Shown: piece after piece, positions 18,226 to 34,988 of the stretch | Numbering within the stretch: the first letter of the stretch is position 1 | How the letters are laid out: every line of letters begins with the position of its first letter | Origin: Acinetobacter wuhouensis | GTDB lineage: Bacteria; Pseudomonadota; Gammaproteobacteria; Pseudomonadales; Moraxellaceae | Direction of reading: 5' to 3' | DNA length: 64,000 nt | NCBI RefSeq assembly: GCF_001696605.3 | Contig: NZ_CP031716.1 | Span: 310,001 to 374,000, forward strand | The notes under the pieces: generated by a model | What the model was told of the DNA's origin: nothing | What the model saw: the letters and a program-made list of their open reading frames with translations, nothing else | The model's database searches: none | Translations under genes and position numbers: made by a program

Positions 18226-18657
18226 ATGAAATCAGTTCAAAAGGGTTTCACCCTTATCGAATTAATGATCGTTGTTGCGATTATCGGTATTCTTGCTGCA
18301 ATTGCGATTCCTGCTTATCAAGATTATATTGCGCGTTCACAAATGACTGAAGCAATGAATCTTGCTGGTGGTCAAAAAGGTGCTGTTACTGAATATTATT
18401 CGAATAAAGGCACTTTCCCAACCAATAACACGGATGCAGGTGTTGCAGCAGCAGCAAGTATTAAAGGTAAATATGTAGATAATGTTGCAATTAGCGGTGG
18501 TAAAATCACAGCAACATTAAAGAGTTCAGATGTCTCTGAAGGTATTAAAAGTGCAACTCTCGTGCTTAGTCCAACTACTTCAGCTGGTTCAGTTGAGTGG
18601 AAATGTACAGGTTCAACAGCTTCAACAGCAAAATATTATCCAACTGCTTGTCGTTAA
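18226..18657 (+). CDS. pilA: Type IV major pilin PilA
   Basis: A 143-residue prepilin: leader MKSVQKG, PilD cleavage before Phe8, and a mature N-terminal helix [20 protein letters not shown] with Glu5. The C-terminal disulphide loop is formed by Cys127 and Cys142, 14 residues apart, and contains the Ser/Thr-rich stretch TGSTASTAK, a plausible O-glycan site (inference). GGAG precedes the ATG. A perfect terminator follows, but the next gene, a GT-C glycosyltransferase-like protein, starts 60 bases later, matching the pilin-plus-modifier gene pairs known from Pseudomonas and Acinetobacter. Whether this or the pilin at 32744 is the main fibre subunit cannot be proven from sequence; the normal length and separate terminator favour this one. 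Confidence 0.92.
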
Positions 18658-18677
18658 TTAAATTAGAGACAAGATCA

Positions 18678-18705
18678 ATAACGCCCTTTTTAGGGCGTTA
18701 TTTTT
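18678..18705 (+). terminator. Terminator directly after pilA
   Basis: ATAACGCCCT and AGGGCGTTAT form a perfect ten-base stem around a TTTT loop, followed by T-rich DNA. It would make pilA transcripts far more abundant than those of the glycosyltransferase gene downstream. Confidence 0.85.
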
Positions 18706-18717
18706 GAATAAGAATAT

Positions 18718-20628
18718 ATGAAAAAATATTTTCCATTTATTTATTTTAATCTGATAATTATAAGTGTTATATGTGTATATATTTATGGATTAAATGGCAA
18801 TTTTTTATTTGATGATTATCCAAATCTAGAGCCACTCGCTAATTCTAATGCAGTAGATAATTGGGATAAAGCGAAAAACTTTATTATTAGTGGTTTTGCT
18901 GGTCCGACAGGTCGCCCTATATCTTTAGCAAGTTTTCTTTTAGATGCAAATACATGGCCTACAGATCCTTATCCATTTAAATATACCAATCTCATGATCC
19001 ATTTACTCAACGGAGTTTTACTCTCTTGGGCAACTTTATTGTTATTACGAAATTATAATTATAAAGAACAACAGGCAATTTGGATTGCCTTAATTGCATC
19101 AAGTATTTGGTTGCTTCATCCATCCTTCGTGTCTACCACACTTTATGTGGTTCAGCGAATGGCTCAATTAGCTACGCTATTCACGCTTATTGGTATTGTT
19201 GGATATTTAAAAGCGCGGTTACTTCTTGTTGATAAGCCACTTCAAGCATATTTCTATATGGCTGTATCAATAGGTTTATGCACAATTTTAGCAACCTATA
19301 GTAAAGAGAATGGCGCACTACTTCCATTACTGATCTTGGTTATAGAGTTTTGTAATCCAGATAAACAAAATCGACCAATATGGCAATGGCGAGCATTGTG
19401 CTTATGGTTGCCATCATGTGCGGTACTGTACTTAATTTTTAGAGAGATTAATTTTGCAGATAATATCTGGCCAAACCGTAACTTTAATCAGGTTGAACGT
19501 TTATATAGTGAAGCTAGAATTGTAACTGAATATTTGTTTAATCTTTTTATTCCTCAAATAGAAGGTCGTGGATTGTATCAAGATGATTTTATAGTTTCAA
19601 AATCCTTATTCCAACCAATCACAACTGTATATTCAATTATTTTTTTAAGTGGGTTGGCACTATCTGCATTTGTGTTAAAGCCAAAATATCCTTTATTTTC
19701 TTTAGCTGTTCTATTTTTCTTTACAGCACACTTGATGGAGTCTACCGTTCTAGGGCTAGAACTTTATTTTGAACATCGTAATTATTTAGCAGCTTTATTT
19801 TTATTTTTACCTATCGCTAGTGCTTTACATTGGTTAAAAAGTAAAATTGAATCAAAATTGGTCTATCTGATTGTTCTTATCATTTTATCTATTTTAAGCT
19901 TTTTTACATATGAAAGAGCAAAGCTATGGGGTAATACAGAACAACTTCTTTTGTATTGGGCGAAAAATTCACCAAACTCACCACGCGCTCAAAGTGAGAT
20001 AGCTAATTACTATACAAAACAAGGTGATATATTAAAGTCAAATCAGCACTTAGAACAAAGTTTAGCGAAAATGCCGAATAGTGCATTATTGACTATGCAG
20101 CTTTTATTACAAAAAGTCTCTTATAGTTTTGCGACTGATCATGATTTTGAAATGACAGCATCTAGATTAGGCCAACAGCCTTTTGATGCACAAGCTATAC
20201 AAGGGTTACGTTTGTTGACAGAGAGCGTTGTTGGTAATCAAGAAGCATGTAAAAAATACTGCTCATCCATATTGGGATTGATTGAGAATTTAGATCATAA
20301 TTCAAAATACAGTAACATTTCAGTTTATTGGCGTTTGTCTGCATATTTAAAAGCTCAGATATATTTAGCGATGAATAATGATGAGATAGCATTAGAACAA
20401 TATCAGGAAGCCGTTAAGCGTTATAATGATGTCGAAGCAGGTTTAATGATGGTGGCAGAATTGGGGACACATAGCTCATCATCAAATGCATTAAGTTTAT
20501 TGAATCAAGTTGAATTGATTTTTAAACAACAGGGTGCATCTACTTTAAGGCGCAGTAGGTCTGAATATGAAATGGAAATTATGAGATTGAAAAAGCTTTT
20601 TGAGCAACAAATCAAGTCTGGGGTTTAA
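18718..20628 (+). CDS. GT-C-type membrane glycosyltransferase with C-terminal TPR region; candidate pilin-modifying enzyme
   Basis: A 636-residue protein. Residues about 1-410 hold many membrane helices. The first periplasmic loop begins with LFDDYPNL, an Asp-Asp pair (32-33) where GT-C enzymes such as PMTs, ArnT and TMTCs have their catalytic acid. The loop AGPTGRPISLASFLLD and KENGALLPLL resemble TMTC/DUF1736 family proteins. From about 415 on the protein is soluble and TPR-like (SEIANYYTKQGDILKSNQHLEQSL). GT-C enzymes use polyprenyl-monophosphate sugars; the next gene is a GtrB-like synthase that could make one. Its position after pilA is where TfpO or TfpW pilin glycosyltransferases are found. 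The pilin link is inference from context. It is not a Wzy_C/PglL protein. Confidence 0.75.
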   Translation: MKKYFPFIYFNLIIISVICVYIYGLNGNFLFDDYPNLEPLANSNAVDNWDKAKNFIISGFAGPTGRPISLASFLLDANTWPTDPYPFKYTNLMIHLLNGVLLSWATLLLLRNYNYKEQQAIWIALIASSIWLLHPSFVSTTLYVVQRMAQLATLFTLIGIVGYLKARLLLVDKPLQAYFYMAVSIGLCTILATYSKENGALLPLLILVIEFCNPDKQNRPIWQWRALCLWLPSCAVLYLIFREINFADNIWPNRNFNQVERLYSEARIVTEYLFNLFIPQIEGRGLYQDDFIVSKSLFQPITTVYSIIFLSGLALSAFVLKPKYPLFSLAVLFFFTAHLMESTVLGLELYFEHRNYLAALFLFLPIASALHWLKSKIESKLVYLIVLIILSILSFFTYERAKLWGNTEQLLLYWAKNSPNSPRAQSEIANYYTKQGDILKSNQHLEQSLAKMPNSALLTMQLLLQKVSYSFATDHDFEMTASRLGQQPFDAQAIQGLRLLTESVVGNQEACKKYCSSILGLIENLDHNSKYSNISVYWRLSAYLKAQIYLAMNNDEIALEQYQEAVKRYNDVEAGLMMVAELGTHSSSSNALSLLNQVELIFKQQGASTLRRSRSEYEMEIMRLKKLFEQQIKSGV

Positions 20629-20638
20629 GGAATCTAGT

Positions 20639-21487
20639 TTGAAAATAAGTATAGTTTTACCTGCCAAAAATGAAGCTGGAGCAATTAGCGATACAATTGC
20701 CAAAATTCAGGTATTGAATATTGCTAAAGAAATTCTAGTTGTAAACGATGGTTCTACTGATTCAACAAAAGAAATTGCAGAGCAAGCAGGTGCGAAAGTT
20801 ATTTCTCATCCTTACTCAAAAGGAAATGGAGCTGCAATTAAAACAGGTGCTCGAAATGCAACTGGTGACGTGATTGTATTTATGGATGCGGATGGGCAAC
20901 ACGACCCTCAAGATATTCCAAGACTTTTAGCCAAAATTGAAGAAGGTTATGATCTGGTCGTAGGGGCTAGACAAAAAGGTTCTCAAGCAAGTGTCGGGCG
21001 AGGTGTAGCAAACAAACTCTATAATAATTTAGCATCTTATATGTCTGAGCATAAGATTGAAGATTTAACATCAGGCTTTAGAGCTGTACGAGCAGAAAAG
21101 TTTAGAGAGTTTATATATTTACTGCCCAATGGTTTTTCGTATCCAACCACAAGTACGATGGCTTTTTTCCGCGCAGGATATTCTGTGACTTATGTGCCAA
21201 TCCATGCCGCAAAACGTATTGGAAAAAGTCACATTCATCCTGTAAAAGATAGTATACGTTTCTTTTTGATTATTTTTAAAATTGCGACTCTATATTCGCC
21301 TTTAAAAATGTTTTTACCTTTTGCTGTAGTGTTGTTTTTATTGGCAACAGGTTGGTATGGTTATACTTTGTATGAATACAATCGCTTTACCAATATGAGT
21401 GCATTATTGTATACAGGCAGTATTATGATCTTTCTGATGGGATTGATTTCAGAACAGATTACAGCTTTAATGTATAAAGAGAAATAA
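20639..21487 (+). CDS. GtrB/DPM1-like family 2 glycosyltransferase (polyprenyl-phosphate sugar synthase)
   Basis: A 282-residue protein. The GT2 domain (1-215) starts ISIVLPAKNEAGAI and shows VVNDGSTDST, the metal-binding FMDADGQHDP and the TSGFRAVRA motif typical of dolichol-phosphate-mannose synthase and GtrB relatives. Two C-terminal membrane helices (about 218-245 and 255-277) match GtrB. Expected reaction: transfer of a sugar from a nucleotide to polyprenyl phosphate on the inner face. The frame is open from TTG 20600, inside the previous gene. The TTG at 20639, with AAGGAA six bases before it and the correct family N-terminus, is preferred. Probably supplies the GT-C protein upstream (inference). 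Confidence 0.83.
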   Translation: MKISIVLPAKNEAGAISDTIAKIQVLNIAKEILVVNDGSTDSTKEIAEQAGAKVISHPYSKGNGAAIKTGARNATGDVIVFMDADGQHDPQDIPRLLAKIEEGYDLVVGARQKGSQASVGRGVANKLYNNLASYMSEHKIEDLTSGFRAVRAEKFREFIYLLPNGFSYPTTSTMAFFRAGYSVTYVPIHAAKRIGKSHIHPVKDSIRFFLIIFKIATLYSPLKMFLPFAVVLFLLATGWYGYTLYEYNRFTNMSALLYTGSIMIFLMGLISEQITALMYKEK

Positions 21488-21492
21488 TAGAA

Positions 21493-23214
21493 GTGCTTGA
21501 TAGTTTAAAACAGCTTTGGCAAATTTTGTCACCTTTAGACAAAAGAAAAGTTTTATACGTTTTAATATTGGTCATGGGGATGGCTTTTATTGAATCAGCG
21601 GGTGTAATTTCGATTATGCCTTTTTTAGCAGTTTTATCGAATCCATCCATTGTTAGTTCAAATCAATATTTACAACTTATGTATGATCTGATGAGGGGCG
21701 GAACTGAACAAATATTTATTGTTAAATTGGGCTTTCTTTCTTTAAGTGTTGTTATTTTTTCTACTTTCTTCAAAATAATTACTCAATATGCTGTAAATCG
21801 GTTCTCAAGTTTACAAAGACATTATTTTTCTACGCGGTTGCTGAAAATTTACTTAAAGCAAAATTATGAATTTTTCATTCAACGAAATAGTGCAACACTC
21901 AGTAAAAATATTTTATCTGAAGTAGATCAACTGATTTGGATGATGATTTTACCTGCTTTGACATTGATGTCTTATAGTATTGTTTTATTGTCTATGGTGG
22001 GTATCCTTTTACTTTATGATCCATTCATGGCATTTGCTACAGCTTCTATATTGGCATTGTTTTATATTAGTATTTATATACTCGTTAGAAAAAAATTAGA
22101 ACTGATTGGACAAGAATTTACACAAGCTAATAAAGAACGTTACCAAACCTGCCAAGAAGCATTGGCCGGTATTAAAGACGTGATGATTAATAATGCAAAA
22201 CAAGGTTATATTGATCAATTCGAACAATCATCTAGAGTTTTTGCGAGACATATTGCTACGCGTGATACTTTAGGACAGATACCGCTTAATATTATAGAAA
22301 CAGTGGGCTATGGTTGTTTAATTGGATTAGCCATGATTTTAGTCATTTCTGGCAAAGATGTTTCACATATTTTACCGATACTTGGTCTATATGGTTTTGC
22401 AGCTTATCGAATGTTACCAGCTGCACAGAATATTTATCGCTCTATTTCTCAGGTAAAGTTTTCACAGCAAGTATTAAATATATTAAAGCCTGAATTTGAA
22501 CTGGAATATCATCAAGAAAGGGATGTGCCTTTATTAAATCAAACTGAAAAAATGGATTTTAATCATTCAATTCGTTTAGAAAATATTTCATTTTCTTATC
22601 CAAATCGCTTAGACCAACCAGTATTAAATAACTTTAGTATCGAAATTAAGAAAAATACCAGCTTAGGTATTATGGGGGAAAGTGGTAGTGGTAAAAGTAC
22701 CTTGATGGATATTATGTTAGGGCTTCTAACTCTACAGCAGGGTAAAATTTATATAGATGAAGTTGAGTTAAACGAAGATAATATCAATGCTTGGCGAGAT
22801 TTAGTGGGATATGTCCCGCAGTTTATATATTTGGCAGATAAAACGATTACTGAAAATATTGCGTTTGGTATGCCTAAATCTGAAATAAATATTGAACAAG
22901 TGATTAAAGTGGCAAAACTCGCACAAGTAGATGATTTTATTCAAAAACAATTGCCTTTAGGTTATGATACTGTCGTTGGTGAACGTGGTGTAATGTTGTC
23001 TGGAGGACAAAGGCAACGTATCGGGATTGCACGTGCGTTATATAAGAGTCCTCAAGTTTTATTTATGGATGAGGCGACAAGTGCTTTGGATCATGAAACA
23101 GAGCAAGCAGTCAATGATGCAATTCAAGGTTTAAATGGGGAAATTACAATGGTAATTATTGCGCATAGGGAAAGTGCGATAAGGCTTTGTAATAAAGTAA
23201 GAAAATTGGGGTAA
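21493..23214 (+). CDS. ABC-type lipid-linked oligosaccharide flippase (PglK/MsbA-like)
   Basis: A 573-residue half-transporter. Six membrane helices (about 20-310) are followed by an ATPase domain with Walker A GESGSGKST (near 393-401), signature LSGGQRQR, Walker B VLFMDEATSALD and the H-loop AHR near the end. N-terminal IESAGVISIMPFLAVLSNP is typical of PglK/WlaB, which flips undecaprenyl-diphosphate oligosaccharides in Campylobacter protein glycosylation. The setting among glycosyltransferases supports a lipid-linked glycan as cargo rather than a drug. The start is a GTG at 21493 with a weak binding site, six bases after the previous stop. No Wzx flippase or Wzy polymerase is present in the cluster. 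Confidence 0.85.
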   Translation: MLDSLKQLWQILSPLDKRKVLYVLILVMGMAFIESAGVISIMPFLAVLSNPSIVSSNQYLQLMYDLMRGGTEQIFIVKLGFLSLSVVIFSTFFKIITQYAVNRFSSLQRHYFSTRLLKIYLKQNYEFFIQRNSATLSKNILSEVDQLIWMMILPALTLMSYSIVLLSMVGILLLYDPFMAFATASILALFYISIYILVRKKLELIGQEFTQANKERYQTCQEALAGIKDVMINNAKQGYIDQFEQSSRVFARHIATRDTLGQIPLNIIETVGYGCLIGLAMILVISGKDVSHILPILGLYGFAAYRMLPAAQNIYRSISQVKFSQQVLNILKPEFELEYHQERDVPLLNQTEKMDFNHSIRLENISFSYPNRLDQPVLNNFSIEIKKNTSLGIMGESGSGKSTLMDIMLGLLTLQQGKIYIDEVELNEDNINAWRDLVGYVPQFIYLADKTITENIAFGMPKSEINIEQVIKVAKLAQVDDFIQKQLPLGYDTVVGERGVMLSGGQRQRIGIARALYKSPQVLFMDEATSALDHETEQAVNDAIQGLNGEITMVIIAHRESAIRLCNKVRKLG

Positions 23215-23216
23215 AA

Positions 23217-24932
23217 ATGGACAACTTGTTTGATGTTTTGAATAAACATAATTTTCATTATGATGAAAATAATAAAATATGGAGCTTAGATAAAAAGTTT
23301 GATTATTCAGATGGGGAAGATGAAGAAAATTATATTTATGAAATAGTAAAAAGCACAAATGATTTGTCAACTTTATCAGATGAGCTAGAGTTTAAAATAA
23401 AGGACTGGTCCTCTTTATACCATTTTTCTTCACAAAGAACTAATTTACTTGAACCATTCCGTTCTGAATGGGAGGGTAAAGTTGTGTTAGAGATTGGTTG
23501 CGGGTGTGGGGCATTTACACGATATTTAGCAGAAAATGCTAAACATGTAATTGCGTTAGAGGGCAGTTTTCGGAGAGCTAAAATTGCTAGAGAAAGATGT
23601 CGTGGTTTGGAAAATGTGACTGTAGTGTGTTGTAATGCTCAAGAATTCCCTTTAATAAATAATATAGATACTGTACTCCTTATAGGCGTTTTGGAGTATG
23701 CAAAAAAGTACCTAGGTGAAAATGGAGAAATAGAGTTATTAAATTTATGTAAAAACCAATTGGGAGATACTGGAAAACTTATCTTAGCTATAGAAAATAA
23801 GTTAGGATTAAAATACTTAGTTGGTGCTAAGGAAGATCATATTGGTATTTCAATGTACGGGTTAAATCGACAATATAAAAAAGCAGATATAACTACGTAT
23901 GGGCGAGTTGAATTACTAAAAAAACTTAAAAAAACAGGTTTTAATTTTATTTCAGAATATTACCCTTTTCCTGATTATAAATTTCCTACTACGATCATAT
24001 CAAAGAATGCGTTAGATAAAAATAAGGAGAATACCGTATTTGAAGATATGATAGTTCAGGCTTTACATAAAGACCCGCAACTGGCAGGAACACATTATAG
24101 TTGTTCAATAGAACAAATGGCTAAAAATTTATGTGAAAATGATTTAATAGGAGATAATTCAAACTCTTTTTTAATGGTAGCATCAAAAGAGAATTTTGAG
24201 CACCAAGATGAGTTAATTTGGTATTATTCATTTTTAAGAAAGAGAAAGTTTTCTAAAAAGATAAAATTTGTTAATTTAAATGAAAATATCTATATAAAAA
24301 ATGACATATCTGGCTATGAATTAATACAAAGTGGTTCAAATTATTGGTGTTCTATTCATGATGTATTAAATAGAGTTGATTGGTCATATAATGAATTATA
24401 TGATTATTTTAATAAGTGGTTTAACTTTGTTTTGGAATCCTCAAATCTTGAAAAAAAATATTGTTTTAACAGTATGATTAGTGGAGTTTTCTTTGAGGCT
24501 TTGCCATTTAATCTATTGGTTGATGGTAGTGATTTAAAGTTTATTGATTTAGATGATTTTTTTGTTAAAGATGATTGTGAGTTAGGTTATTTGTTTTATA
24601 GAGGTGTTTTAAATTCATTATTACGGGTTACATCAGTGAGTCACAGTATTTATTTGAAAGACATAAAGATTCATAATATTTCGAGAGTTATTCTAAAAAT
24701 GAGGTTTCCAACGATTACGGATAATATAATTGATAACTATTTAATGAAGGAAGTTGATTTTCTGAATGAGGTATCAATTCTAAAAACAAAAAATGAATTA
24801 CTCAGAGAAATGAATTTGGTAGTACGACTTGATATGGATGAAAATAATAGAAATTTTAATAATTTTAAGTTTGTTTTTAAATATACATGCAGTCTTTTTT
24901 TTAGAAAAATAAAAAGAATAATTAATGTTTGA
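23217..24932 (+). CDS. SAM-dependent methyltransferase with large C-terminal domain
   Basis: A 571-residue protein. Residues about 85-215 are a class I methyltransferase: SAM-binding VLEIGCGCGAFTRYL (near 91), the acidic end of strand 2 (VIALEG) and VLLIGVLEY. The remaining 350 residues contain PFNLLVDG (near 431) and FIDLDDFF (near 442). This pattern is common at the end of methyltransferases in polysaccharide loci and recalls the metal/ATP-binding elements of kinase-like folds. Methylation of a sugar in the cluster's glycan is the likely role. WbdD-type methyltransferase/kinase chain terminators are one speculative comparison. The gene is very AT-rich compared with the housekeeping genes around the island. 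It starts two bases after the ABC transporter stop. Confidence 0.75.
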   Translation: MDNLFDVLNKHNFHYDENNKIWSLDKKFDYSDGEDEENYIYEIVKSTNDLSTLSDELEFKIKDWSSLYHFSSQRTNLLEPFRSEWEGKVVLEIGCGCGAFTRYLAENAKHVIALEGSFRRAKIARERCRGLENVTVVCCNAQEFPLINNIDTVLLIGVLEYAKKYLGENGEIELLNLCKNQLGDTGKLILAIENKLGLKYLVGAKEDHIGISMYGLNRQYKKADITTYGRVELLKKLKKTGFNFISEYYPFPDYKFPTTIISKNALDKNKENTVFEDMIVQALHKDPQLAGTHYSCSIEQMAKNLCENDLIGDNSNSFLMVASKENFEHQDELIWYYSFLRKRKFSKKIKFVNLNENIYIKNDISGYELIQSGSNYWCSIHDVLNRVDWSYNELYDYFNKWFNFVLESSNLEKKYCFNSMISGVFFEALPFNLLVDGSDLKFIDLDDFFVKDDCELGYLFYRGVLNSLLRVTSVSHSIYLKDIKIHNISRVILKMRFPTITDNIIDNYLMKEVDFLNEVSILKTKNELLREMNLVVRLDMDENNRNFNNFKFVFKYTCSLFFRKIKRIINV

Positions 24933-24942
24933 GAGTTAGCCA

Positions 24943-25920
24943 ATGATAAGCATTATTATCCCAAATTATAATCATTATGATTATCTTGAAGAACGTTTAG
25001 ATAGTGTATTCTCACAAACTTATCTTAACTATGAGGTTATTATCTTAGATGATTGTTCAACGGATAATAGTTTAAAAATATTGAGTAGATATAAAGACCA
25101 TCCAAAAGTTTCACATTTTATTGTAAATAAAGTGAATTCAGGTTCAGTATTTAAACAGTGGAATAAGGGGATTGAGTTAGCTCAAGGTGAGTTGATATGG
25201 ATAGCTGAATCAGATGATATTGCGAGTTATGATTTTTTAGAGAAAATGGTTCATAGTTTTGATAAGTATGCCAAAGTAGTATTGGCATATTGCCAATCGA
25301 AGAAAATTAATAGTTCTGGAGAAATATTTGGTGATTGGGTGGCTCATACCGACTTAAATGGTCAGAATAAACATACAGATGATTTTCATATGGGGGGAGG
25401 GGAGTTTATTGAAAAATATATGTTAGACCAAAACTCAATTCCGAATGCAAGTGGAGTCATTTTTAAAAAATCAATTTATCAACTTGTTGGTGGACCATTG
25501 ACTGAATTAAGAACGGTTGGTGACTGGAATGTTTGGGTAAAAATATTAACGCAAGGAGAAATATTTTTTTGCGCTGAAAAAATGAATTTCTTTAGAATGC
25601 ATGACTCAAGTTGTGTAGCTTTATCAAATAAAAATGATAAAAGAGCGAATATTATATTGATGCATCTGAATATGTATGAGAATTTATTTGACTTTTTTCA
25701 TAAAAATAATTTTAAAATTTCACAAAAAAAGTGGGAAAAAAGGGATATGGTAGCTACTAAATTAATGTTTAACTGCATTTCAAATAATAATTATCAATTG
25801 TTATTTGAAGTTTTTATTAAATATAAGCTTTTTTATATCTTTTTTAATCGTACTTTCTATTTTGTGTTTTTAAGAATGATTACTACTTTTTTTCTTGGTA
25901 AGAGTAACGGAAAAATTTAA
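24943..25920 (+). CDS. Family 2 glycosyltransferase
   Basis: A 325-residue cytosolic GT-A enzyme. It starts ISIIIPNYNHYDYLEERLDSV, with the nucleotide-binding ILDDCSTDNS and the metal site IAESDD near residue 87. A likely acceptor-side motif is GDWNVWVKIL near 188. The C-terminal hydrophobic helix (YKLFYIFFNRTFYFVFL) probably attaches it to the membrane. This class adds single sugars to growing lipid-linked glycans; donor and linkage cannot be told. Strongly AT-rich. It starts ten bases after the methyltransferase gene, so it is likely co-transcribed. Confidence 0.85.
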   Translation: MISIIIPNYNHYDYLEERLDSVFSQTYLNYEVIILDDCSTDNSLKILSRYKDHPKVSHFIVNKVNSGSVFKQWNKGIELAQGELIWIAESDDIASYDFLEKMVHSFDKYAKVVLAYCQSKKINSSGEIFGDWVAHTDLNGQNKHTDDFHMGGGEFIEKYMLDQNSIPNASGVIFKKSIYQLVGGPLTELRTVGDWNVWVKILTQGEIFFCAEKMNFFRMHDSSCVALSNKNDKRANIILMHLNMYENLFDFFHKNNFKISQKKWEKRDMVATKLMFNCISNNNYQLLFEVFIKYKLFYIFFNRTFYFVFLRMITTFFLGKSNGKI

Positions 25921-25987
25921 TATCTGGTTCTTTTTTAATTTAATGATAAAAAAATATTGTTAAACTTTTTCACTAGTAGAGGTTGTA

Positions 25988-26902
25988 ATGACTAAGCCTT
26001 TAGTTTCCATAGCATTAGCCACATATAATGGTGAAAAATTTCTTAAGCAACAGATGGATTCTTTGTTGGCTCAAGATTACCCAAACTTAGAAATTGTTAT
26101 CTCTGATGATTGCTCTACTGATGGAACTTGGGAAATATTACAGAATTATGCTCTGAAAGATAATCGTATTAAACTTTTACCACGTGAAGAAAAAAATATT
26201 GGATATATAAATAATTTTATTAAAGTCTTTATGGCATGTCGAGGAGAGTTTATTTCGCCTTGCGATCAAGATGATATATGGCATGTTGATAAAACAAGTC
26301 GTTTAGTTTCTGAAATAGATAATGCAATGCTTGTGTATTGTGACAATAGATTCATAGATGAAGAAGATAATCCTATAGGTATTAACTATTCTGATACTGT
26401 AAGATTCATGATATCAGGTAACGACTGCCGAAATTTCTTATTTTATAATTCAATATTGGGTCATACTATGTTATTCCGTAGAGATTTGCTAGGAATAATT
26501 AGTGATATGACCTCTATTGGTTATATAGACTGGTTGATTGCATTTTATGCGGCAGAGTATGGCGGTATTGTATATTTAAAAGAAACTTTGGTGGATTGGA
26601 GACAGCATTCTGAATCAACAACCTTCAATGTTCGGAATGGTGGTGAGAAAGCTAAGGCTGTAATGGTAGATGAAAATGCATTAAATGTTTTTTCCTCTGT
26701 CGAAAGTACGCATCAGGAATTTGCATGCAGAGCTTTCAAGACTTGGCTTAAGTGGAAAAATAGTTATTTAAACTTTTCAATGTTTATATTTATAATTCGC
26801 TATGGGAGTATAACGCATTGTCATCACCCTGCAAAATTTCCTGCACTAAAGTATTTACTAGGTTATAAATTAAAAAAATTAATACGCCCTAATTTTTACT
26901 AA
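25988..26902 (+). CDS. Family 2 glycosyltransferase (rhamnosyl/galactosyl-transferase-like)
   Basis: A 304-residue GT-A enzyme with VSIALATYNGEKFLKQQMDSL at the start, VISDDCSTDGT and SPCDQDDIWH (the metal-binding DQDD, near residue 96). The LVDWRQHSEST stretch near 200 matches the catalytic-base region of RfbF/WbbL-like rhamnosyl and related transferases. GAGG precedes the ATG by five bases. The donor sugar is not determinable; no dTDP-rhamnose genes are in the window. A 67-base gap separates it from the gene before. Confidence 0.83.
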   Translation: MTKPLVSIALATYNGEKFLKQQMDSLLAQDYPNLEIVISDDCSTDGTWEILQNYALKDNRIKLLPREEKNIGYINNFIKVFMACRGEFISPCDQDDIWHVDKTSRLVSEIDNAMLVYCDNRFIDEEDNPIGINYSDTVRFMISGNDCRNFLFYNSILGHTMLFRRDLLGIISDMTSIGYIDWLIAFYAAEYGGIVYLKETLVDWRQHSESTTFNVRNGGEKAKAVMVDENALNVFSSVESTHQEFACRAFKTWLKWKNSYLNFSMFIFIIRYGSITHCHHPAKFPALKYLLGYKLKKLIRPNFY

Positions 26903-26928
26903 ATAAAAAATTTTTCGAGAGTGTTTAG

Positions 26929-27834
26929 ATGAAAGTTAGCATAATTATAGTAACCTATAACCGAAAGGAGTTACTTTTACAATGTTTAAAAGCATTAATG
27001 TTGCAAACATATAAAATAACGACACTCATTGTTGTCAATAATGCTTCAACAGATGGAACAGAAGATTATGTTAAAAATTCTAATTTACAGGGAGTGGATA
27101 AAATAAAATGGGTGAATTTAAAAAATAATATTGGTGGTGCTGGTGGTTTTTTTTCAGGTATAGAATATGCTTTGAAGCAAGATGCTGAATGGATTTGGAT
27201 GATGGATGATGATGGTTATCCTGAACCAGAGTGCCTACAAAAACTTACTGATGAAGTAAGATGTAGAGAGGTTCAGGCAATATCGCCTTTGCAGGTAAAT
27301 ATTCATGATGTCGATAAACTTGCATTCCCTGTTTGGGTGAATGGGAAACAGTTGAGGGGAAATGTAGGTCAAGTTTTAGATAATAACTTTATTGGACAAG
27401 AAGCAAATTTATTTAATGGTTTGCTGATCCATGAGTCTGTCATAAAAAAAATAGGATTACCAAAAAAAGAATTATTTATCAGGGGGGATGAGGTTGAATA
27501 TACTAAAAGGTTGTTAAAAAATAATATAAAATTTGGGACACTTACATCCGCTAAATTTTATCATCCAAGTGATGATAATGAACGAATAAAGAGCTTATTC
27601 GGGCTCTTAATTACTCGTGATGCGCATTCAGATTTTAAAAACTATTATATGTTTAGAAATAGAGCTGTTGCTTTTATAGAAGATGGTAATGCATGGTTAC
27701 TTCCTGTGGATTTCATTCGTTATACTTATTATTATTTAATCGTCAAAAAAATGAACTTAAATGGTTTGAGGCTGTGGTTGAGTGCAACTTGGGATGGTAT
27801 TAGAGGTAAGTTAGGTCGACATCCAAAATATTAA
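26929..27834 (+). CDS. Galactofuranosyltransferase-like family 2 glycosyltransferase (GlfT2-type)
   Basis: A 301-residue enzyme with VSIIIVTYNRKELLLQCL, VVNNASTDGT, the characteristic NIGGAGGFFSGI and WIWMMDDDGYP (metal-binding DDD near residue 89). These motifs are shared with mycobacterial GlfT2 and bacterial galactofuranosyltransferases that use UDP-Galf. The next gene, glf, makes UDP-Galf, which strongly supports the assignment. RGDEVEYTKRL near 185 is the acceptor/base region. The final HPKY lies 13 bases before glf. Galf specificity is inferred from motifs plus neighbour. Confidence 0.82.
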   Translation: MKVSIIIVTYNRKELLLQCLKALMLQTYKITTLIVVNNASTDGTEDYVKNSNLQGVDKIKWVNLKNNIGGAGGFFSGIEYALKQDAEWIWMMDDDGYPEPECLQKLTDEVRCREVQAISPLQVNIHDVDKLAFPVWVNGKQLRGNVGQVLDNNFIGQEANLFNGLLIHESVIKKIGLPKKELFIRGDEVEYTKRLLKNNIKFGTLTSAKFYHPSDDNERIKSLFGLLITRDAHSDFKNYYMFRNRAVAFIEDGNAWLLPVDFIRYTYYYLIVKKMNLNGLRLWLSATWDGIRGKLGRHPKY

Positions 27835-27847
27835 CTGGGGAAAAGAG

Positions 27848-28942
27848 TTGAAAGTTTTAATCATCGGCGCAGGTTTTGCTGGCTCAGTCTGTGCTCGAGA
27901 ATTAGCCGAAGCCGGACATCAAATCTGTGTTTTAGATCGTCGTGACCATATAGCGGGAAATGCTTTTGATTTAAAAGATGAGCATGGCGTACTGATTCAT
28001 CAATACGGTCCGCATATTTTTCATACCAACAGTGAACGAATTCTTAATTATTTATCCAAATACACGGAATGGTATCAATACGAACATCGTGTACATGGAG
28101 TGGTTGACGGAAAAGAATATCCATTCCCAATTAATCGAGATACATTAAATCAGCTTTATAGTCTTGATTTGGATGAGAAGGGAGCAGCGGATTTTTTTGA
28201 AAAAGTACGTGAACCTAGAGAACCTGTTAAAACCAGTGAAGATGTTGTTTTAAACTCAGTTGGTCGAGATTTATATGAAAAATTCTTTTTAAACTATACA
28301 AAAAAACAGTGGGGCTTAGACCCATCTCAGCTCAAAGCTGGTGTAGCTGCGCGGATTCCTACCCGAACGAATACGGATGACCGTTATTTCACTGATACAT
28401 TTCAAGCAATGCCTTTGCATGGTTATACGGTCATGTTTGAGAATCTCTTGAATCATCCTAATATTGAAGTTCAATTATCTACTGAATTTAAAGATATTCT
28501 AAACTCTAGTCGTGAATTTGATCATATTGTTTACACAGGTCCTATAGATGCTTTTTATGGTTTTAAGTTTGGGCACTTACCTTATAGATCACTCCGCTTT
28601 GAACATGAACATCTAGCAGATCAAGAATGGTATCAATCAGTTGGAACGGTAAACTACCCGAATGATTTCGATTTCACAAGGATTACTGAATTTAAACATT
28701 TGACAGGACAACAGACTACGTCAACATCGATTGTTCGAGAATATCCAACAGCAGAGGGTGATCCATATTATCCGATTCCTCGTGATGAAAATGAAATATT
28801 ATTTAAAAAATATAAAGCATTGGCGGATCAAGAGGAGAGAGTTACTTTTGTTGGTCGTTTAGCTGAATATCGTTATTACAATATGGATCAAGTAGTTGGC
28901 GCTGCTTTAAATGCTGTAGATATAATTTTAGAGAGAAAATAA
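27848..28942 (+). CDS. glf: UDP-galactopyranose mutase
   Basis: Flavoenzyme converting UDP-galactopyranose to UDP-galactofuranose. The 364-residue product begins with a Rossmann FAD motif IGAGFAGSVCARELAEAGH. It shows GPHIFHTN, the active-site histidine loop, then YTKKQWGLDPSQL and IPTRTNTDDRYFTDTFQ, and ends with GRLAEYRYYNMDQVVGAAL, all standard Glf blocks. Start codon is TTG at 27848 with AAAAGAG upstream; no ATG fits. The base composition is less AT-rich than the genes before it. Its product should feed the transferase at 26929. Confidence 0.96.
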   Translation: MKVLIIGAGFAGSVCARELAEAGHQICVLDRRDHIAGNAFDLKDEHGVLIHQYGPHIFHTNSERILNYLSKYTEWYQYEHRVHGVVDGKEYPFPINRDTLNQLYSLDLDEKGAADFFEKVREPREPVKTSEDVVLNSVGRDLYEKFFLNYTKKQWGLDPSQLKAGVAARIPTRTNTDDRYFTDTFQAMPLHGYTVMFENLLNHPNIEVQLSTEFKDILNSSREFDHIVYTGPIDAFYGFKFGHLPYRSLRFEHEHLADQEWYQSVGTVNYPNDFDFTRITEFKHLTGQQTTSTSIVREYPTAEGDPYYPIPRDENEILFKKYKALADQEERVTFVGRLAEYRYYNMDQVVGAALNAVDIILERK

Positions 28943-30049
28943 TTGAAAATAGCTTTCTTATGTAAACGACAATATATGTCTAAGGATGTAATTTTAGATA
29001 AATATGCTCGTTTATACGAGATACCCAATCAATTGGCTTTACTTGGTCACCAAGTCGAAAGTTTTTGTTTAAGCTATCAGGCACATGATGAGGGTGATTG
29101 GGATGAGTCTAATCATTTAAAGTCATTGGTTTGGCATTCTAAAAGTTATAAAGGTCTAAATAAGATAGGGTTGTTGACCTACCCTATTTTTCTTTTACAA
29201 AAATTGAAGAAATTTCAACCTGATATTATTATTGCAGCCTCAGATATTCCGCACATTGTTTGGGGAGCATGGTGTGCAAAAAAGTTAAATATTCCTTTAG
29301 TAGCAGATCTTTATGATAATTTTGAAGCATATGGACAAGCTAAAATCCCATTTTTAAAGCCTCTATTTCATCAAGCCTTATCCACTGCAAAGGTGATTTC
29401 AACAACTAGTTTTAGTTTGGCTGAAAAAATGCGCAAAGACTTTCCAAATGTTCCAAATATATATCCAATGCCAAGTGTTATTGATAAGGACTTATTCAAG
29501 TCTAGTGATAAAATTGTGGCAAGAAAATTTTTAAATTTACCTCTAGATAAACCACTAATTGGTACTGCTGGAGGATTAACTCAAATGAAAGGTATTGATG
29601 ATTTATTTAATGCTTGGGAAATAATAAAAAATCAAAATGACCAAGTATATTTGATTTTAGCTGGACCGACAGAAGAAAAAACACCATTGCCTCATGATGA
29701 GCGTGTCATTTATTTGGGATTATTATCGCACAAAGACGTTGTTACTCTGTTTCAAGCTTTAGATGTCGGAGTGTTGTGTATTCCCGATGATGAATTTGGG
29801 CGATACTGTTTCCCACAAAAAGCGTATGAAATGCTCGCATGCAATCTCTCAATCGTATCATCAGAAATAGGGGATATGAGAGTCCTTTTAAATAAGCATT
29901 CAGATAGCTTATATATCAATAGAAACTATCAAGATTTGGCAAATAAGCTATCCTTTCAATTAGCGCACCATGACAAAATAGAGATACCTATACTGTCATG
30001 GAGACAAACTGTAGAAAATTTAGAGTGCTATTTAAAGCAATTGATTTAA
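28943..30049 (+). CDS. Family 4 glycosyltransferase (GT-B fold)
   Basis: A 368-residue GT-B enzyme. The C-terminal half shows the GT4 pattern: GTAGGLTQMKGIDDLFNAW, LILAGPTEE, VIYLGLLSHKDVVTLFQALDVGVL, and the FPQKAYEMLA block corresponding to the E(x)7E donor site, here with Gln/Glu variation. The N-terminal part contains ADLYDNFEAYGQ, a stretch seen in GT4 transferases of polysaccharide loci. It starts with TTG directly after the glf stop codon (28940-28942). Last plus-strand gene of the run; the next two genes are on the opposite strand. Donor and acceptor unknown. Confidence 0.83.
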   Translation: MKIAFLCKRQYMSKDVILDKYARLYEIPNQLALLGHQVESFCLSYQAHDEGDWDESNHLKSLVWHSKSYKGLNKIGLLTYPIFLLQKLKKFQPDIIIAASDIPHIVWGAWCAKKLNIPLVADLYDNFEAYGQAKIPFLKPLFHQALSTAKVISTTSFSLAEKMRKDFPNVPNIYPMPSVIDKDLFKSSDKIVARKFLNLPLDKPLIGTAGGLTQMKGIDDLFNAWEIIKNQNDQVYLILAGPTEEKTPLPHDERVIYLGLLSHKDVVTLFQALDVGVLCIPDDEFGRYCFPQKAYEMLACNLSIVSSEIGDMRVLLNKHSDSLYINRNYQDLANKLSFQLAHHDKIEIPILSWRQTVENLECYLKQLI

Positions 30050-30051
30050 TA

Positions 30052-31110
30052 TTATTTAAAATAATTAGCAATTATAGCACTAGGAGATGATATCAGATTT
30101 AATTTTTCTTTTTGTAGAATAGTATATTTTTTAGATATGATAAATTTAACAACACTTGGTGGATCATTAATTAAAATTGCATTTTCTCCTATTCCATCAT
30201 GTCTTTCAGTTGATTCTCTTAAAATAATAGTAGGATGACCAAAAAAGGCTAACTCTTCTTGATTAGAGCCACCGTCAGTAATTACAATCTCATTAGATAA
30301 TGCTAAATCTAGAAACTTTTGATAAGTCATTCTAGGAAGTAAATTTATACGCTTGTTGGTTAATTGTTCTAGTAAATTGTATTGTAATAATTTCTTTTTA
30401 GTTGCTGGATGAAGAACAAAGTTGATTGTATATTTTTCACTTAGAGTAATTAGCATTTCTACAATAGATTGTAGTCTTTCTTTATTGTAGATGTTATGAA
30501 AACGATGTAATGATATTAAAATCGTATTTGGTTCTCTATTTATATTTTTTCCAATTTTTAGATAGGTAATACTGTCTAGAATGGTATTCCCGTGAGTATA
30601 AAGAATCTCAGTTTTAGCATACTTCTTCATGTGTTGAACATCCTGTTCACTAGGACAACAAGCAACATCTGTACATCTAAATACAATTCTTCGAATTATT
30701 TCCTCGGGAAACGGATTAAAAAGCATTTTAGATGTCAATCCACTTTCTAGATGAACAACGGAATGCCCTGTAAACTTGGCTGCTAATGTGCTTATTAATG
30801 TTGTTAATGTATCACCATGAACAAAAATATTAGATTTTTTAGATTGTTTTAAAACCTTAATCAAAGCTAAAAAGCTATAAGGTAACCATAGTAATAAAGC
30901 TAAAATTGAAGAATGTTCTTTATTTTTAATTAATTGCGTTATTGGAGTTTTTATTCCAAATTCCTCAATGATTTCTTCCATTGTATCATTGTGTTGTCCC
31001 GTCAATACAAATTTTGAGGGAAGCTCTTTTTCTTCGAATTCTTTTAATATTGGAGCAACTTTTATTAGTTGTGCCCGAGTGCCAATAATAAAAATATTAT
31101 CTTTGATCAT
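30052..31110 (-). CDS. wecB: UDP-N-acetylglucosamine 2-epimerase family protein
   Basis: WecB-family enzymes convert UDP-GlcNAc to UDP-ManNAc, or act on related acetamido sugars. The 352-residue product shows FIIGTRAQLIKVAP at the start, the HGDT motif near residue 96, a conserved HLESGL, PFPEEIIRR, and the C-terminal uracil-binding block TDGGSNQEELAFFG. Overall similarity is looser than for canonical WecB, as GTRAQ replaces GTRPE, so a variant substrate or a hydrolysing form is possible. It ends two bases from the convergent GT4 gene and follows a dehydrogenase on the same strand, so the pair may make a HexNAcA sugar. Confidence 0.8.
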   Translation of the reverse strand: MIKDNIFIIGTRAQLIKVAPILKEFEEKELPSKFVLTGQHNDTMEEIIEEFGIKTPITQLIKNKEHSSILALLLWLPYSFLALIKVLKQSKKSNIFVHGDTLTTLISTLAAKFTGHSVVHLESGLTSKMLFNPFPEEIIRRIVFRCTDVACCPSEQDVQHMKKYAKTEILYTHGNTILDSITYLKIGKNINREPNTILISLHRFHNIYNKERLQSIVEMLITLSEKYTINFVLHPATKKKLLQYNLLEQLTNKRINLLPRMTYQKFLDLALSNEIVITDGGSNQEELAFFGHPTIILRESTERHDGIGENAILINDPPSVVKFIISKKYTILQKEKLNLISSPSAIIANYFK

Positions 31111-31217
31111 AATGTCTCTATGGCTGTTAAGGTGAATGAAGGACTATACATAATGAATTAAATGATGATTTTAAAGACGAAGGCTGTTTTATCACAATTA
31201 ATATTTTTGACTACATT

Positions 31218-32510
31218 TTATAAACGTATATCTACTTGCTCTAACTCAAAAATATGTTTTAAATCATAAATAATACATTCTGTTTTACCTAAGTTACGAA
31301 TATTCTTATATCCCAAATCAATAAAATTTTGATGGCCTATTGCTAAGATGATAGCATCATAGTGATTATTTTGAAGTTGTTGAATGGATTTTAAGCCATA
31401 TTCTTTTTCAACTTCATGCGGATTTACCCATGGGTCATAAATATCTAGATTTAGATCATAATCTTTAAGACTTTCAATTAAATCAATAATTTTAGTATTA
31501 CGAATATCTGGACAGTTTTCTTTGAATGATAACCCCATGACTAGAATATTGCCCCCAACCACTTGAATCTGCTTTTTAACCATAGCTTTGATCAGTTGGG
31601 TTGCTACATATTCGCCCATACGGTCGTTCAAACGTCTGGCAGCAAGGATAATTTCTGGATGTAAGCCGATAGATTGTGCTTTATGAGTTAGATAATATGG
31701 ATCTACACTGATACAGTGTCCACCGACCAGTCCAGGGCGGAATGGTAGGAAATTCCATTTTGTTTCAGCAGCTTTTAGAACTTCTTCTGTATCAATTCCT
31801 AAGCGATTAAAAATTAATGCCAGCTCATTCATCAAAGCAATGTTGACATCACGTTGAGTATTTTCAATCACTTTAGCGGCTTCAGCGATTTTAATCGAAG
31901 GGGCTTTGTATGTGCCTGCTTCAATAATTTGTAGATAAATTTGGTCAATAAAGTGAGCAACTTCATCTGTAGATCCAGAAGTAATTTTTTTAATATTGGT
32001 TAGCTTTTTCTTTTTGTCACCTGGGTTAATTCGTTCTGGACTATAGCCAACAAAGAAGTCGTGATTAAAAATGAGTTCTGAGTATTTCTCTAAAATAGGT
32101 ACACACACTTCTTCTGTAGCGCCGGGATATACCGTTGACTCATAAACAACTACATCGCCCTGTTTTAGATATTTTGCAATAGTTTGAGAGGAGTGGATGA
32201 GCGGGTTTAAATCTGGTTGTTTAAAATCGTCAATAGGTGTGGGCACTGTAACAATATAAAAATTACATGTATCTAAAATACTTGGATCTGATGATAGTGT
32301 TATTTGTTCTAATTGGTTAAGTTCAAATGAATTTAATTCAAGTGTATGATCTTGCTTTTGTTTTAACTCTTGAATGCGTTTTGTATTAATATCAAATCCA
32401 ATGACATCAAATTTTTTGCTAAATGCAAGTGCAAGAGGTAAACCAACATATCCTAAGCCAATGATAGCAATTTTAATATTTTTAAAATTTAAGTTATTTA
32501 GTTGTTGCAT
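31218..32510 (-). CDS. UDP-N-acetylhexosamine 6-dehydrogenase (TviB/WbpA/Gna-type)
   Basis: NAD-dependent oxidation of the C6-OH of a UDP-HexNAc to the uronic acid. The 430-residue product has the NAD Rossmann motif [11 protein letters not shown] (17-27) and VTVPTPID, then [11 protein letters not shown]. The catalytic Cys lies in [13 protein letters not shown] near residue 265, with [16 protein letters not shown] following. Sequence features fit the TviB/WbpA branch (UDP-GlcNAc) better than WecC or UDP-glucose dehydrogenase. With the epimerase it could give UDP-GlcNAcA or UDP-ManNAcA. Divergent from the pilin gene at 32744, leaving a 233-base shared upstream region. Confidence 0.88.
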
Positions 32511-32651
32511 TGAGTATTCGATCAGACATCATCATTTGATGATTATACCCAATATTTAAATAAAATGTGCTGAATACGATGATTCATTGTATAGAAATAC
32601 AGTTACAAGAATTTGATAAATATACCTAAATTGTATTATTTATTAAATTAG

Positions 32652-32666
32652 TGTCAATTAATGACA
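32652..32666. repeat. Short inverted repeat between the dehydrogenase and pilin genes
   Basis: TGTCA (32652-32656), spacer ATTAA, TGACA (32662-32666). It lies in the very AT-rich divergent intergenic region and has the size and symmetry of a regulator site, but nothing identifies the regulator. Confidence 0.25.
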
Positions 32667-32743
32667 ATAAATTAACACAATCAAAAATAAACTAGATTCA
32701 TGAAAGCTTTTTGGATATTTTGACAAAAAATTAGGAGGCTTTT

Positions 32744-33196
32744 ATGAATAATAATGGTTTTACACTTATTGAGCTAATGATAGTTGTTGCAATTATTGGA
32801 ATCTTAGCTGCGTTTGCTATTCCTGCATACATGGATTATACGACTCGGGCACAAGTCTCTGAGGCATTAAATATGGCAAGTTCACTGAAATCTGAGGTAA
32901 TTAGAAAATATGGTGAAAGTGGAACATGTCCAACATCACCAGAAGATTTGGGTCTTGATTCATTGGGAACAGTGAATGGTAAATATGTACAGAGAGTTGG
33001 AATTAATACCACGTATAGTGGGGCTTTATGCGCTTTTGAATTTACTTTTAATAGCTCTGGTATGAATGGTGGTGTGGCTGGTAAAAAACTTATCTTTGCA
33101 ATGATGAATTATACTGGTAATGGTTCGGCGCGTTGGGAATGTGCGTCATCACAAATCTCTCAAAGGTTTTTACCTACAGTTTGCCATGGCATATAA
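32744..33196 (+). CDS. Second type IV pilin (ComP/PilA-like) paired with a PglL-type OTase
   Basis: A 150-residue prepilin: leader MNNNG, cleavage before Phe6, helix [20 protein letters not shown] with Glu5. The globular part differs from the first pilin: four cysteines, an [10 protein letters not shown] loop, and a C-terminal disulphide loop between Cys133 and Cys147 (ECASSQ...PTVC). A strong AGGAGG precedes the ATG. It is followed by a pglL-like gene, like comP-pglL pairs in other Acinetobacter, where ComP is the pilin needed for DNA uptake and is O-glycosylated by its own OTase. ComP identity is likely but not certain, so no symbol is given. The window encodes two full-length major-type pilins. 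Confidence 0.85.
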
Positions 33197-33284
33197 AATA
33201 CAGTGATACAAAATATTTGATTCACATGTATTAAGTCATGAATATCTTAGCTCCACTATATTTTGAGGGGGAAGTAGATTTAGG

Positions 33285-33313
33285 ATTAGCTAAATTTTCA
33301 AAAATGTTATAAT
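33285..33313 (+). promoter_or_regulatory. Possible promoter of pglL-like gene
   Basis: A consensus TATAAT (33308-33313) sits 28 bases before the ATG at 33342. The matching -35 (ATTAGC, 33285-33290, 17-base spacing) is poor. It suggests the OTase gene can be expressed apart from the pilin gene. Confidence 0.3.
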
Positions 33314-33341
33314 TCATCATTCTTAAATTTTGCTATTTAAT

Positions 33342-34988
33342 ATGAAAGCCATCCCATACATTCTTTCAGCCATATTTTTATTACTGGCATGGTTACTCCC
33401 GATCCATAAAATACCATGGACAACTTTTGGTAGCGAGCTACTAACATTCCTATCAGCTATTGCATTGCTCTCAGCATTTATCAATCAAGACCTAAAAATA
33501 CCACGACCACAAGTGGTGGCATTACCGATCCTTGCTATTCCATTACTACAATTTGCGTTCGGACAAATTCTCTATTTGAGTAATGCGTTACTGTGTACAG
33601 CATACATTGCGATGTTTTGGTTGATGGTCAGTGTGGGATATAACTTAGCAATAGGTGAAAAAGGGCAAAGAGAACAAGTTTTTAAAATATTCTGTTTGGT
33701 GGTTTTTACCGGTGCAGTGCTTTCAAGTGTAATTGCAATCTTTCAGTGGTTAGATATAGAACGTTATTTAAGCCCATTTGCGAATGTTTTAAATCATAAC
33801 CGACCATATGCCAATTTTGCTCAACCGAATAATTTAGCAACCTTTATATGCATGGGTGTATTTGCTTGTTTATATTTCTATGAAAAGAAAATACTACCTA
33901 GGTTGGTTTTAGTTCCTGCAACATTTATATTTTTATTCACAATAGGATTAACCCAATCTCGTACAGCTTGGGTGGTTTGCCTATTCACTCTTATTTATCT
34001 AAGCATTAAACAATTTGGGAAAAGTAAACGTTTAAGTTTTCTAAAATTATTGGCATGGGTTACTGTCTTTATCATCATTATTTCTTGTTTACCGATGCTA
34101 AATCAGTTTATTGCTTCGGCTACTGAGCATAAAGTGATGTATACGTCATCTGTAGTTGAAAGAGCATCTTCTGGTTATCTGCGTCTGGATATGTGGAATC
34201 AAGCTTTAATCGCAATAGGACAACATCCTTGGTTTGGTTATGGTTGGAACCAAACAGGGATGGCACAAATCGCAGCATTTGATCTATATCCATCACATGA
34301 GTGGTATAAAACTGCACACAATATAATTCTGGATCTCCTATTATGGAATGGTATTCCGATTGGTGGAGTGATCATCCTTTATGTGGTTTGTTGGTTGTAT
34401 TGGCTCAATAAAGGTATCCGAGAACCTGTTTCGATCGCTGCTAGTTTAATGGTGTGTGCGATCTTGATTCATGCATTATTAGAATATCCAATTCATTATG
34501 CATACTTTTTATTGCCATTGGGTTTTTTACTCGGGATGATCCAAGCGCAGTACCCACAATTACCAACGGTAAAATTAAAGTCATCGGTGATTGTTACTGT
34601 GATGATTATTGGTGTGATGCTCGTTGGTGTGATTTATCGTGATTATATTATTTATCGCCAACAATCTGTTTTTGTCTCAAAGAAAACACTCACCGCTTCA
34701 CAAAAAGAAGTCATGGATCAGGAAATCTATGTCCTGACACAATTTAAAGAACGTGTTTGGTGGATTGGTTTAAATCCGTATACAAAAATGTCAGATCAAC
34801 AATTGCAATATATCGGGCGTATGGTGGCAAATTTAGCATCGGCTTATGACATCAATAAATATGCTCAGGTACTCGCATTTAATGGTAAAAAAGCTGAAGC
34901 TGAACATCAGCTGTGGATTTTAAAAACCTTGCATAGGCAAGATAAGCGCTATCAAGATTTATTACCGAGTTCTATAGTCAAACTATAA
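33342..34988 (+). CDS. pglL: PglL/TfpO-type O-oligosaccharyltransferase (Wzy_C family)
   Basis: Transfers a glycan from undecaprenyl diphosphate to Ser/Thr of exported proteins on the periplasmic side. The 548-residue product has about a dozen membrane helices. The PglL-family stretch RPYANFAQPNNLATF is near residue 152 and TQSRTAW near 203. A large periplasmic loop holds the conserved His of TAHNIILDLLLWNG near residue 326. A soluble C-terminal tail begins near 440. The frame opens at TTG 33330, but the ATG at 33342 is better placed. It follows the second pilin by 145 bases, so that pilin is its likely main substrate. TfpO-like and general PglL enzymes cannot be separated without a tree. Confidence 0.88.
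   Translation: MKAIPYILSAIFLLLAWLLPIHKIPWTTFGSELLTFLSAIALLSAFINQDLKIPRPQVVALPILAIPLLQFAFGQILYLSNALLCTAYIAMFWLMVSVGYNLAIGEKGQREQVFKIFCLVVFTGAVLSSVIAIFQWLDIERYLSPFANVLNHNRPYANFAQPNNLATFICMGVFACLYFYEKKILPRLVLVPATFIFLFTIGLTQSRTAWVVCLFTLIYLSIKQFGKSKRLSFLKLLAWVTVFIIIISCLPMLNQFIASATEHKVMYTSSVVERASSGYLRLDMWNQALIAIGQHPWFGYGWNQTGMAQIAAFDLYPSHEWYKTAHNIILDLLLWNGIPIGGVIILYVVCWLYWLNKGIREPVSIAASLMVCAILIHALLEYPIHYAYFLLPLGFLLGMIQAQYPQLPTVKLKSSVIVTVMIIGVMLVGVIYRDYIIYRQQSVFVSKKTLTASQKEVMDQEIYVLTQFKERVWWIGLNPYTKMSDQQLQYIGRMVANLASAYDINKYAQVLAFNGKKAEAEHQLWILKTLHRQDKRYQDLLPSSIVKL

Follow-up and report, generated by a model that had tools for sequence, protein, structure and literature searches.

The O-oligosaccharyltransferase classes TfpO/PilO, TfpM, PglS and PglL are tabulated in a 2025 review, which names Ser (or Thr) at the C-terminus of the pilin as the residue targeted by TfpO and TfpM (PMC12645811). 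TfpW is called a GT-C arabinosyltransferase and an oligosaccharyltransferase in the titles of its papers (PMC11841053, PMC12369383), and pilin glycosylation by TfpO and TfpW is reported to guard against phages (PMC11841053). Pilin-adjacent GT-C enzymes (TfpW), pairs of GtrB and GT-C proteins, and PglL-type enzymes are already known. PglL, TfpO, TfpM and PglS use diphosphate donors, and AglJ-type enzymes start a glycan on dolichol phosphate. The literature searched, with most subscription papers outside it, yielded no report of a pilin-GT-C-GtrB-PglK cassette or of the Acinetobacter locus described here.

This locus lies in Acinetobacter wuhouensis, in a window (the whole stretch of DNA analyzed, 64,000 nucleotides, G000:C8:310001-374000) of a 3.96-Mb genome. 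An initial annotation of the window read it as two mechanistically distinct pilin-transferase pairs that bracket sugar genes common to both. We propose instead that it contains a single pilin-glycosylation module built around the GT-C enzyme, with PglL as a neighbor.

Organization of the locus

The block is flanked by lemA/TPM genes on one side and bfr-spoT-gmk on the other. The genes between the flanks, with families taken from Pfam and NCBIfam profiles and with Glf and the GT4 gene following the three GT2 genes, are listed below in their order.

18226..18657, + strand: pilin1, type IV pilin (PF00114, 92 bits; N_methyl; C-terminal residue Arg), presumed acceptor of the GT-C enzyme
18677..18706, + strand: terminator-like hairpin and T run between pilin1 and the GT-C gene
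18718..20628, + strand: GT-C membrane domain (about residues 1-415) with C-terminal TPR domain (about 416-636), proposed pilin oligosaccharyltransferase
20600..21487, + strand: GtrB/AglJ-like polyprenyl-phosphate sugar transferase (GT2 domain), proposed initiator
21493..23214, + strand: PglK-type ABC flippase (highest-scoring NCBIfam profile PglK, 354 bits against a cut-off of 1000)
23217..24932, + strand: methyltransferase-domain protein of the glycan cluster (PF13649)
24943..25920, + strand: GT2 glycosyltransferase without TM segments (profile matches, TM prediction)
25988..26902, + strand: GT2 glycosyltransferase without TM segments (profile matches, TM prediction)
26929..27834, + strand: galactofuranosyltransferase-like GT2 (GlfT1, 222 bits, cut-off 330)
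27848..28942, + strand: UDP-galactopyranose mutase Glf (TIGR00031, 372 bits, above cut-off)
28943..30049, + strand: GT4-type glycosyltransferase (PF13692)
30052..31110, - strand: UDP-sugar 2-epimerase-like protein, WecB family (PF02350; wecB 165 bits, cut-off 210)
31218..32510, - strand: UDP-GlcNAc 6-dehydrogenase TviB (NF011729, 637 bits, above the cut-off of 592)
32744..33196, + strand: pilin2 (PF00114, 66 bits; N_methyl)
33330..34988, + strand: PglL-type O-oligosaccharyltransferase (Wzy_C, Wzy_C_2, PglL_A), a neighbor not counted as part of the module

Every ORF named in the initial annotation was found at its position among the window ORFs, and the gene assignments held. A pilin stands at each end of the block (18226 and 32744, both PF00114 with N_methyl), the flippase, transferases and sugar-nucleotide genes between them have Pfam or NCBIfam matches, and the gene behind pilin2 has the domains of a PglL-type enzyme. 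The GT-C/TPR membrane protein and GtrB-like protein behind pilin1 were confirmed by the predicted fold of the former and by the GT2 domain, TM segments and DxD motif of the latter.

The two pilins are the only PF00114 matches (E<=0.001) in the whole genome, and PglL at 33330 is its sole Wzy_C match. GC content, taken in 1-kb steps, spans 0.25-0.37 within the block; the adjoining 10 kb on the left are mostly at 0.39-0.44, and the 14 kb on the right mostly at 0.34-0.41. None of the three GT2 proteins has a TM segment, as expected for enzymes that extend a chain in the cytosol. Judged from these genes, Glf and the GlfT1-like GT2 suggest galactofuranose in the glycan, and TviB suggests a GlcNAc-derived uronic acid. 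The 86-nt stretch containing the hairpin 3' of pilin1 (18640-18725) has a folding z of -5.6, with 0 of 200 shuffles as stable; terminators after pilin genes, in pilin/accessory pairs, are described in an earlier study (PMC11841053). More pilin-like ORFs occur downstream of gmk, within a few kb of the block, and surround a 1228-aa protein (window 41491-48894), which we take from its place to be pilY1-like.

Pfam gave no GT-C family for the GT-C/TPR protein, only weak TPR matches, and NCBIfam gave no match. The GT-C label comes from its AlphaFold2 model (mean pLDDT 87.6), which VIA-align placed on GT-C enzymes (Pmt4, AglB, ArnT) plus a TPR domain; Pmt4 and AglB occupied the top rows, and the 30 best rows were all GT-C enzymes by title. 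Together with this fold, the protein has the acidic motif of the GT-C superfamily (D32-D33) right after TM1 in the first periplasmic loop, invariant in 25 sequences and kept in 90% or more of 50. Plain Foldseek with the model gave no match at E<=0.001, and a PDB sequence search gave only TPR proteins at that threshold. The Wzy_C domain that defines PglL/TfpO-type enzymes is absent. By hhalign, the GT-C family aligned with P0192 (probability 99.9, 524 columns, 19% identity), a probable TfpW judging by organism, length and relation to the GT-C protein of genome G057; as with TfpW, a GT-C homolog is thus encoded beside its pilin. Of 8000 candidates that were scored, 4784 fall into the family at E<=0.001. 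Names among the 120 relatives listed are tetratricopeptide repeat, membrane or hypothetical protein, and the closest named relative among the matches listed is from A. defluvii (90% identity).

The GtrB-like protein has a GT2 domain, two C-terminal TM segments and a DxD motif (DAD), and in a PDB search resembles the solved ArnC, DPMS and GtrB. Its best NCBIfam match is AglJ, at 135 bits against a cut-off of 325, which falls short of an AglJ equivalog.

Conservation and borders of the module

A GT-C match was found in 26 of 149 Acinetobacter genomes, always with a pilin directly upstream (26/26). GtrB (E<=1e-60, 78-100% identical) was likewise found in 26 of the 149, 25 of which also have the GT-C gene (Fisher p 4e-26, phylogeny ignored); L033 (A. 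chengduensis) was not counted as independent of G084:C89. GtrB is the first gene 3' of GT-C in 22 of the 26, follows extra genes in three (G084, G087, G065), and is absent in G057, the GT-C of which is TfpW-like (23-24% identity). In G031, the one genome with GtrB and no GT-C match, GtrB lies close to the beginning of a contig of 8.5 kb. The gene order of the block recurs in other genomes and is therefore not due to chance.

Several variants were seen. In G057 (L111, L112), the TfpW-like GT-C occupies the same slot together with UbiA, GtrA and a DprE1-like protein, apparently a D-arabinofuranose pilin system outside Pseudomonas. In L081 and L083 (G087, G065), a second short pilin lies between GT-C and GtrB, the pilins being very short (117-122 aa). 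In L065, L069 and L079 (G147, G118, G128), bfr or a reversed pilin lies upstream of pilin1, and the TPM/lemA genes lie downstream, reversed. G051:C1 carries two PF00114 pilin pairs (2.915/2.918 Mb and 3.483/3.486 Mb) that are equal in score and spacing, which looks like a duplication.

At the level of the order, 108 of 390 genomes matched GT-C, many through the TPR part only. Among 29 loci read from other families (16 of them read further downstream), a same-strand pilin lies upstream of GT-C in 20 and GtrB follows GT-C in 19; ten have no GtrB after GT-C, some of these being cut or tandem. Among the remaining loci are some at contig ends, some with GT-C genes in tandem and some that have neither gene, and L164 adjoins a gene with a PilB-type MshEN domain. 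Tandem GT-C pairs occur in L168, L174, L179, L182 and L186, some directly behind a pilin.

Of the 123 genomes in which GT-C had no match, 19 were sampled for loci lacking GT-C, with PglL as the anchor and its closeness as part of the choice; their genes were named by BLAST to the window proteins and ten of the rest by Pfam, and the G048 locus spans only 4.1 kb. None of the 19 contains anything like the GtrB, flippase or transferases of the window; their slot is occupied by pilins together with a small number of accessory genes. The TPM2-to-bfr distance is 9.9-24.5 kb in the collinear GT-C loci (20 of 26 genomes, G057 included) versus 2.6-7.0 kb in the collinear GT-C-less loci (16 of 19). PglL-like proteins (E<=0.001, related OTase classes not told apart) occur in 141 of the 149 genomes, and in G039, G112 and G084 the sugar cluster is present with the sole PglL match elsewhere. 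In G119, the reading frames of the two pilins, PglL, GtrB and TviB are open, and those of GT-C, PglK and a GT4 transferase are in pieces.

The gene after the pilin varies among these GT-C-less loci (L139-L157), which form a pilin-modification hotspot. It encodes a Wzy_C enzyme or a 245-259-aa protein that has no firm Pfam match and is like TfpY/FimB in length and, in single loci, a sulfatase-fold protein (EptA-like in L154, a different one in L142) or a beta-lactamase-fold protein (L146); in L148, PglL follows at once.

Orthologs of pilin2 (54-78%; that of G084, 74%, counted from BLAST) stand at the end of the cluster in 8 of 25 GT-C genomes (G057 set aside) and in none of the 19 GT-C-less loci, where the best match is 45% (G010, inverted). 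PglL comes directly after pilin2 in two of the eight (G000, G013), is separated from it by one gene in G141 and G119, and is not there in the other four. Pilin2 is therefore tied to the GT-C cluster more than to PglL.

Covariation was examined in 24 of the 26 GT-C genomes (PglL in 16, spoT in 20), leaving out G119 with its broken GT-C, G057 and L033, and computing pilin1 distances without the first 30 residues. GT-C and pilin1 distances correlated (rho 0.54, Mantel p 0.001; 0.53 after TPM2 and GtrB). GtrB correlated with neither pilin1 (0.10) nor GT-C (0.05), and at 83% conserved has little room to vary. GT-C distances also track TPM2 (0.37), spoT (0.34) and, weakly, PglL (0.29), and the covariation with pilin1 could stem from co-transfer of neighbors. 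PglL distances follow spoT (0.70, 16 genomes), which lies a few kb away, and not pilin1 (0.07). When the enzyme is split, the TPR domain keeps a correlation of 0.31 with pilin1 after the TM part, and the TM part 0.11 after the TPR domain, giving modest support to the TPR domain as pilin reader. A C-terminal Ser/Thr is absent in 22 of 24 pilin1 proteins (G055 and G132 end in Ser), which together with the terminal Arg in the window leads us to reject a TfpO/TfpM-style C-terminal Ser target for pilin1.

The sugar genes thus go with GT-C, given their absence from the GT-C-less loci, the slot lengths, the ubiquity and distances of PglL, the pattern of pilin2 and the decay in G119. On these grounds, we reject the idea of two pairs sharing one set of sugar genes; what stands of the two-route reading is pilin1, GT-C and GtrB as a conserved unit of polyprenyl-monophosphate type. 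The computation supports pilin1, GT-C/TPR, GtrB-like, PglK-type flippase and sugar genes (to about 32.5 kb) as members of one pilin-glycosylation module, with PglL a neighbor more than a user of the cluster.

Lipid carrier and alternative readings

No PF02397 initiator lies near the cluster in any of 27 genomes, and one lies elsewhere in 23 of them (C8:3713846 in the source genome). PF00953 matched MraY in each genome. An additional PF00953 copy lies at a distance in each of G003, G046 and G128, which belong to the four genomes lacking PF02397; the remaining one of the four, G031, is an assembly of 2.0 Mb with a completeness of 91%. With four reference initiators, phmmer found none in the Acinetobacter neighborhoods save MraY of G128, outside the cluster, and in 16 order-level stretches found one ItrA-like gene (L203), about 18 kb downstream. 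On these searches, we reject a diphosphate initiator within the Acinetobacter clusters read. All 25 Acinetobacter clusters with GtrB and GT-C encode a flippase for larger glycans (PglK-like in 23, one of them broken; Wzx in two). Because of the lack of a cluster initiator, the flippases and the GT2 proteins without TM segments, we infer undecaprenyl monophosphate to be the carrier on which GtrB begins the chain. This start is not proven, because most of the 27 genomes have an initiator elsewhere (PF02397, or an extra PF00953), which could serve the cluster by beginning a chain on a diphosphate carrier.

Our preferred mechanism, to which as a whole we give slightly better than even chances, is that an oligosaccharide on undecaprenyl monophosphate is flipped and put on pilin1 by GT-C. 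The computation supports the fold, the conserved gene linkage, the module borders and the lack of a diphosphate initiator in Acinetobacter clusters; the steps past module membership we infer. The module would fill a variable slot that is bounded by the lemA/TPM genes and by pglL-bfr. GtrB would load a presumed first sugar, from a presumed donor, onto undecaprenyl monophosphate, the cytosolic transferases of the cluster would lengthen the chain, and the PglK-type (or Wzx) flippase would turn it over. GT-C/TPR would then move the oligosaccharide en bloc to a putative internal Ser/Thr of pilin1, perhaps also of pilin2, with the TPR domain possibly helping to select the pilin. PglL would be an old resident, probably serving other proteins with capsule-type units. 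The decay in G119, with GT-C, flippase and transferase broken and pilins and PglL open, counts for the module, and its open GtrB counts against the mechanism. So do the AglJ score far below cut-off and the lack of a Foldseek match, the tracking by GT-C of TPM2, spoT and PglL but not of its presumed partner GtrB, and at order level the ItrA-like gene of L203 and the loci without GtrB.

Alternatively, GtrB and GT-C may add a single sugar to pilin1, the rest of the cluster making a diphosphate-linked oligosaccharide for PglL. Single-sugar transfer is the classic GtrB/GT-C partnership (PMC11127046), PglL adjoins the cluster in the window, and the genome has an initiator elsewhere. We nevertheless consider this unlikely: PglL loci without GT-C have no such sugar genes, G039, G112 and G084 have the cluster with PglL elsewhere, and the block encodes neither an initiator nor GtrA.

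The consistent position of a pilin before GT-C (26/26 Acinetobacter, 20/29 other loci), the covariation of GT-C with pilin1 and its relation to probable TfpW make it quite improbable that GT-C decorates a lipid-linked oligosaccharide in the periplasm, Gtr-like, for PglL to move to the pilins, although GT-C/GtrB pairs decorate O-antigen in this manner (PMC11127046). There is very little chance of this being a capsule or LPS locus that lies by accident between pilins; the cluster shares gene types with such loci, but the PF02397 initiator of the genome is elsewhere and the GT-C-less loci read have no such cluster. Finally, we reject as hardly credible that the enzyme is simply TfpW with a D-arabinofuranose route encoded elsewhere: it is a remote homolog of probable TfpW, and in P. 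paraeruginosa TfpW/TfpX adjoin pilA with the sugar genes in another island (PMC12369383), but UbiA, GtrA and DprE-type proteins are absent from the block, and the best match in G000 to the DprE1-like protein of G057 is weak (26.6 bits, 22% identity), as in 24 other genomes of the 27.

Comparison with known systems

The locus may represent a bacterial O-glycosylation route with archaeal AglB-type logic, a proposal we advance tentatively: a GtrB/AglJ-like start on undecaprenyl monophosphate, a PglK/Wzx flip and en bloc GT-C/TPR transfer to a type IV pilin, as a swappable pilin cassette spread through the order. If this is right, not all bacterial pilin oligosaccharyltransferases use diphosphate-linked glycans, and a large GT-C family would use monophosphate carriers. 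Pilin, transferase and glycan would form a self-contained, exchangeable cassette, useful for glycoengineering, and its exchange would help explain pilus surface variation.

Archaeal AglJ-AglB N-glycosylation differs in that the present system is bacterial and presumed O-linked, with a TPR domain and an AglJ match below cut-off. Among eukaryotic systems, the Pmt and TMTC O-mannosyltransferases come closest; the PDB sequence search with the enzyme gave only TPR proteins (E<=0.001). PglL, TfpO, TfpM and PglS are of WaaL/Wzy_C type, unlike the GT-C of the window, which has no Wzy_C domain; they are reported to move lipid-linked oligosaccharides in Acinetobacter, with TfpO, TfpM and PglS adjoining their pilin (PMC12645811). 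The GtrA/GtrB/GT-C three-component systems likewise combine a GtrB-type synthase with a GT-C enzyme (PMC11127046), whereas the block has no GtrA and has PglK (Wzx in other clusters), extra transferases and a pilin as presumed acceptor. TfpW, of P. aeruginosa group IV pilins and P. paraeruginosa, is likewise pilin-adjacent and reportedly swapped with other accessory genes at the same place (PMC11841053, PMC12369383). In contrast to TfpW, the GT-C enzyme described here has no close D-arabinose gene, the D-Araf pathway (UbiA, DprE1/E2-like) not being in the block, and is adjoined by GtrB, a flippase and a sugar cluster of its own.
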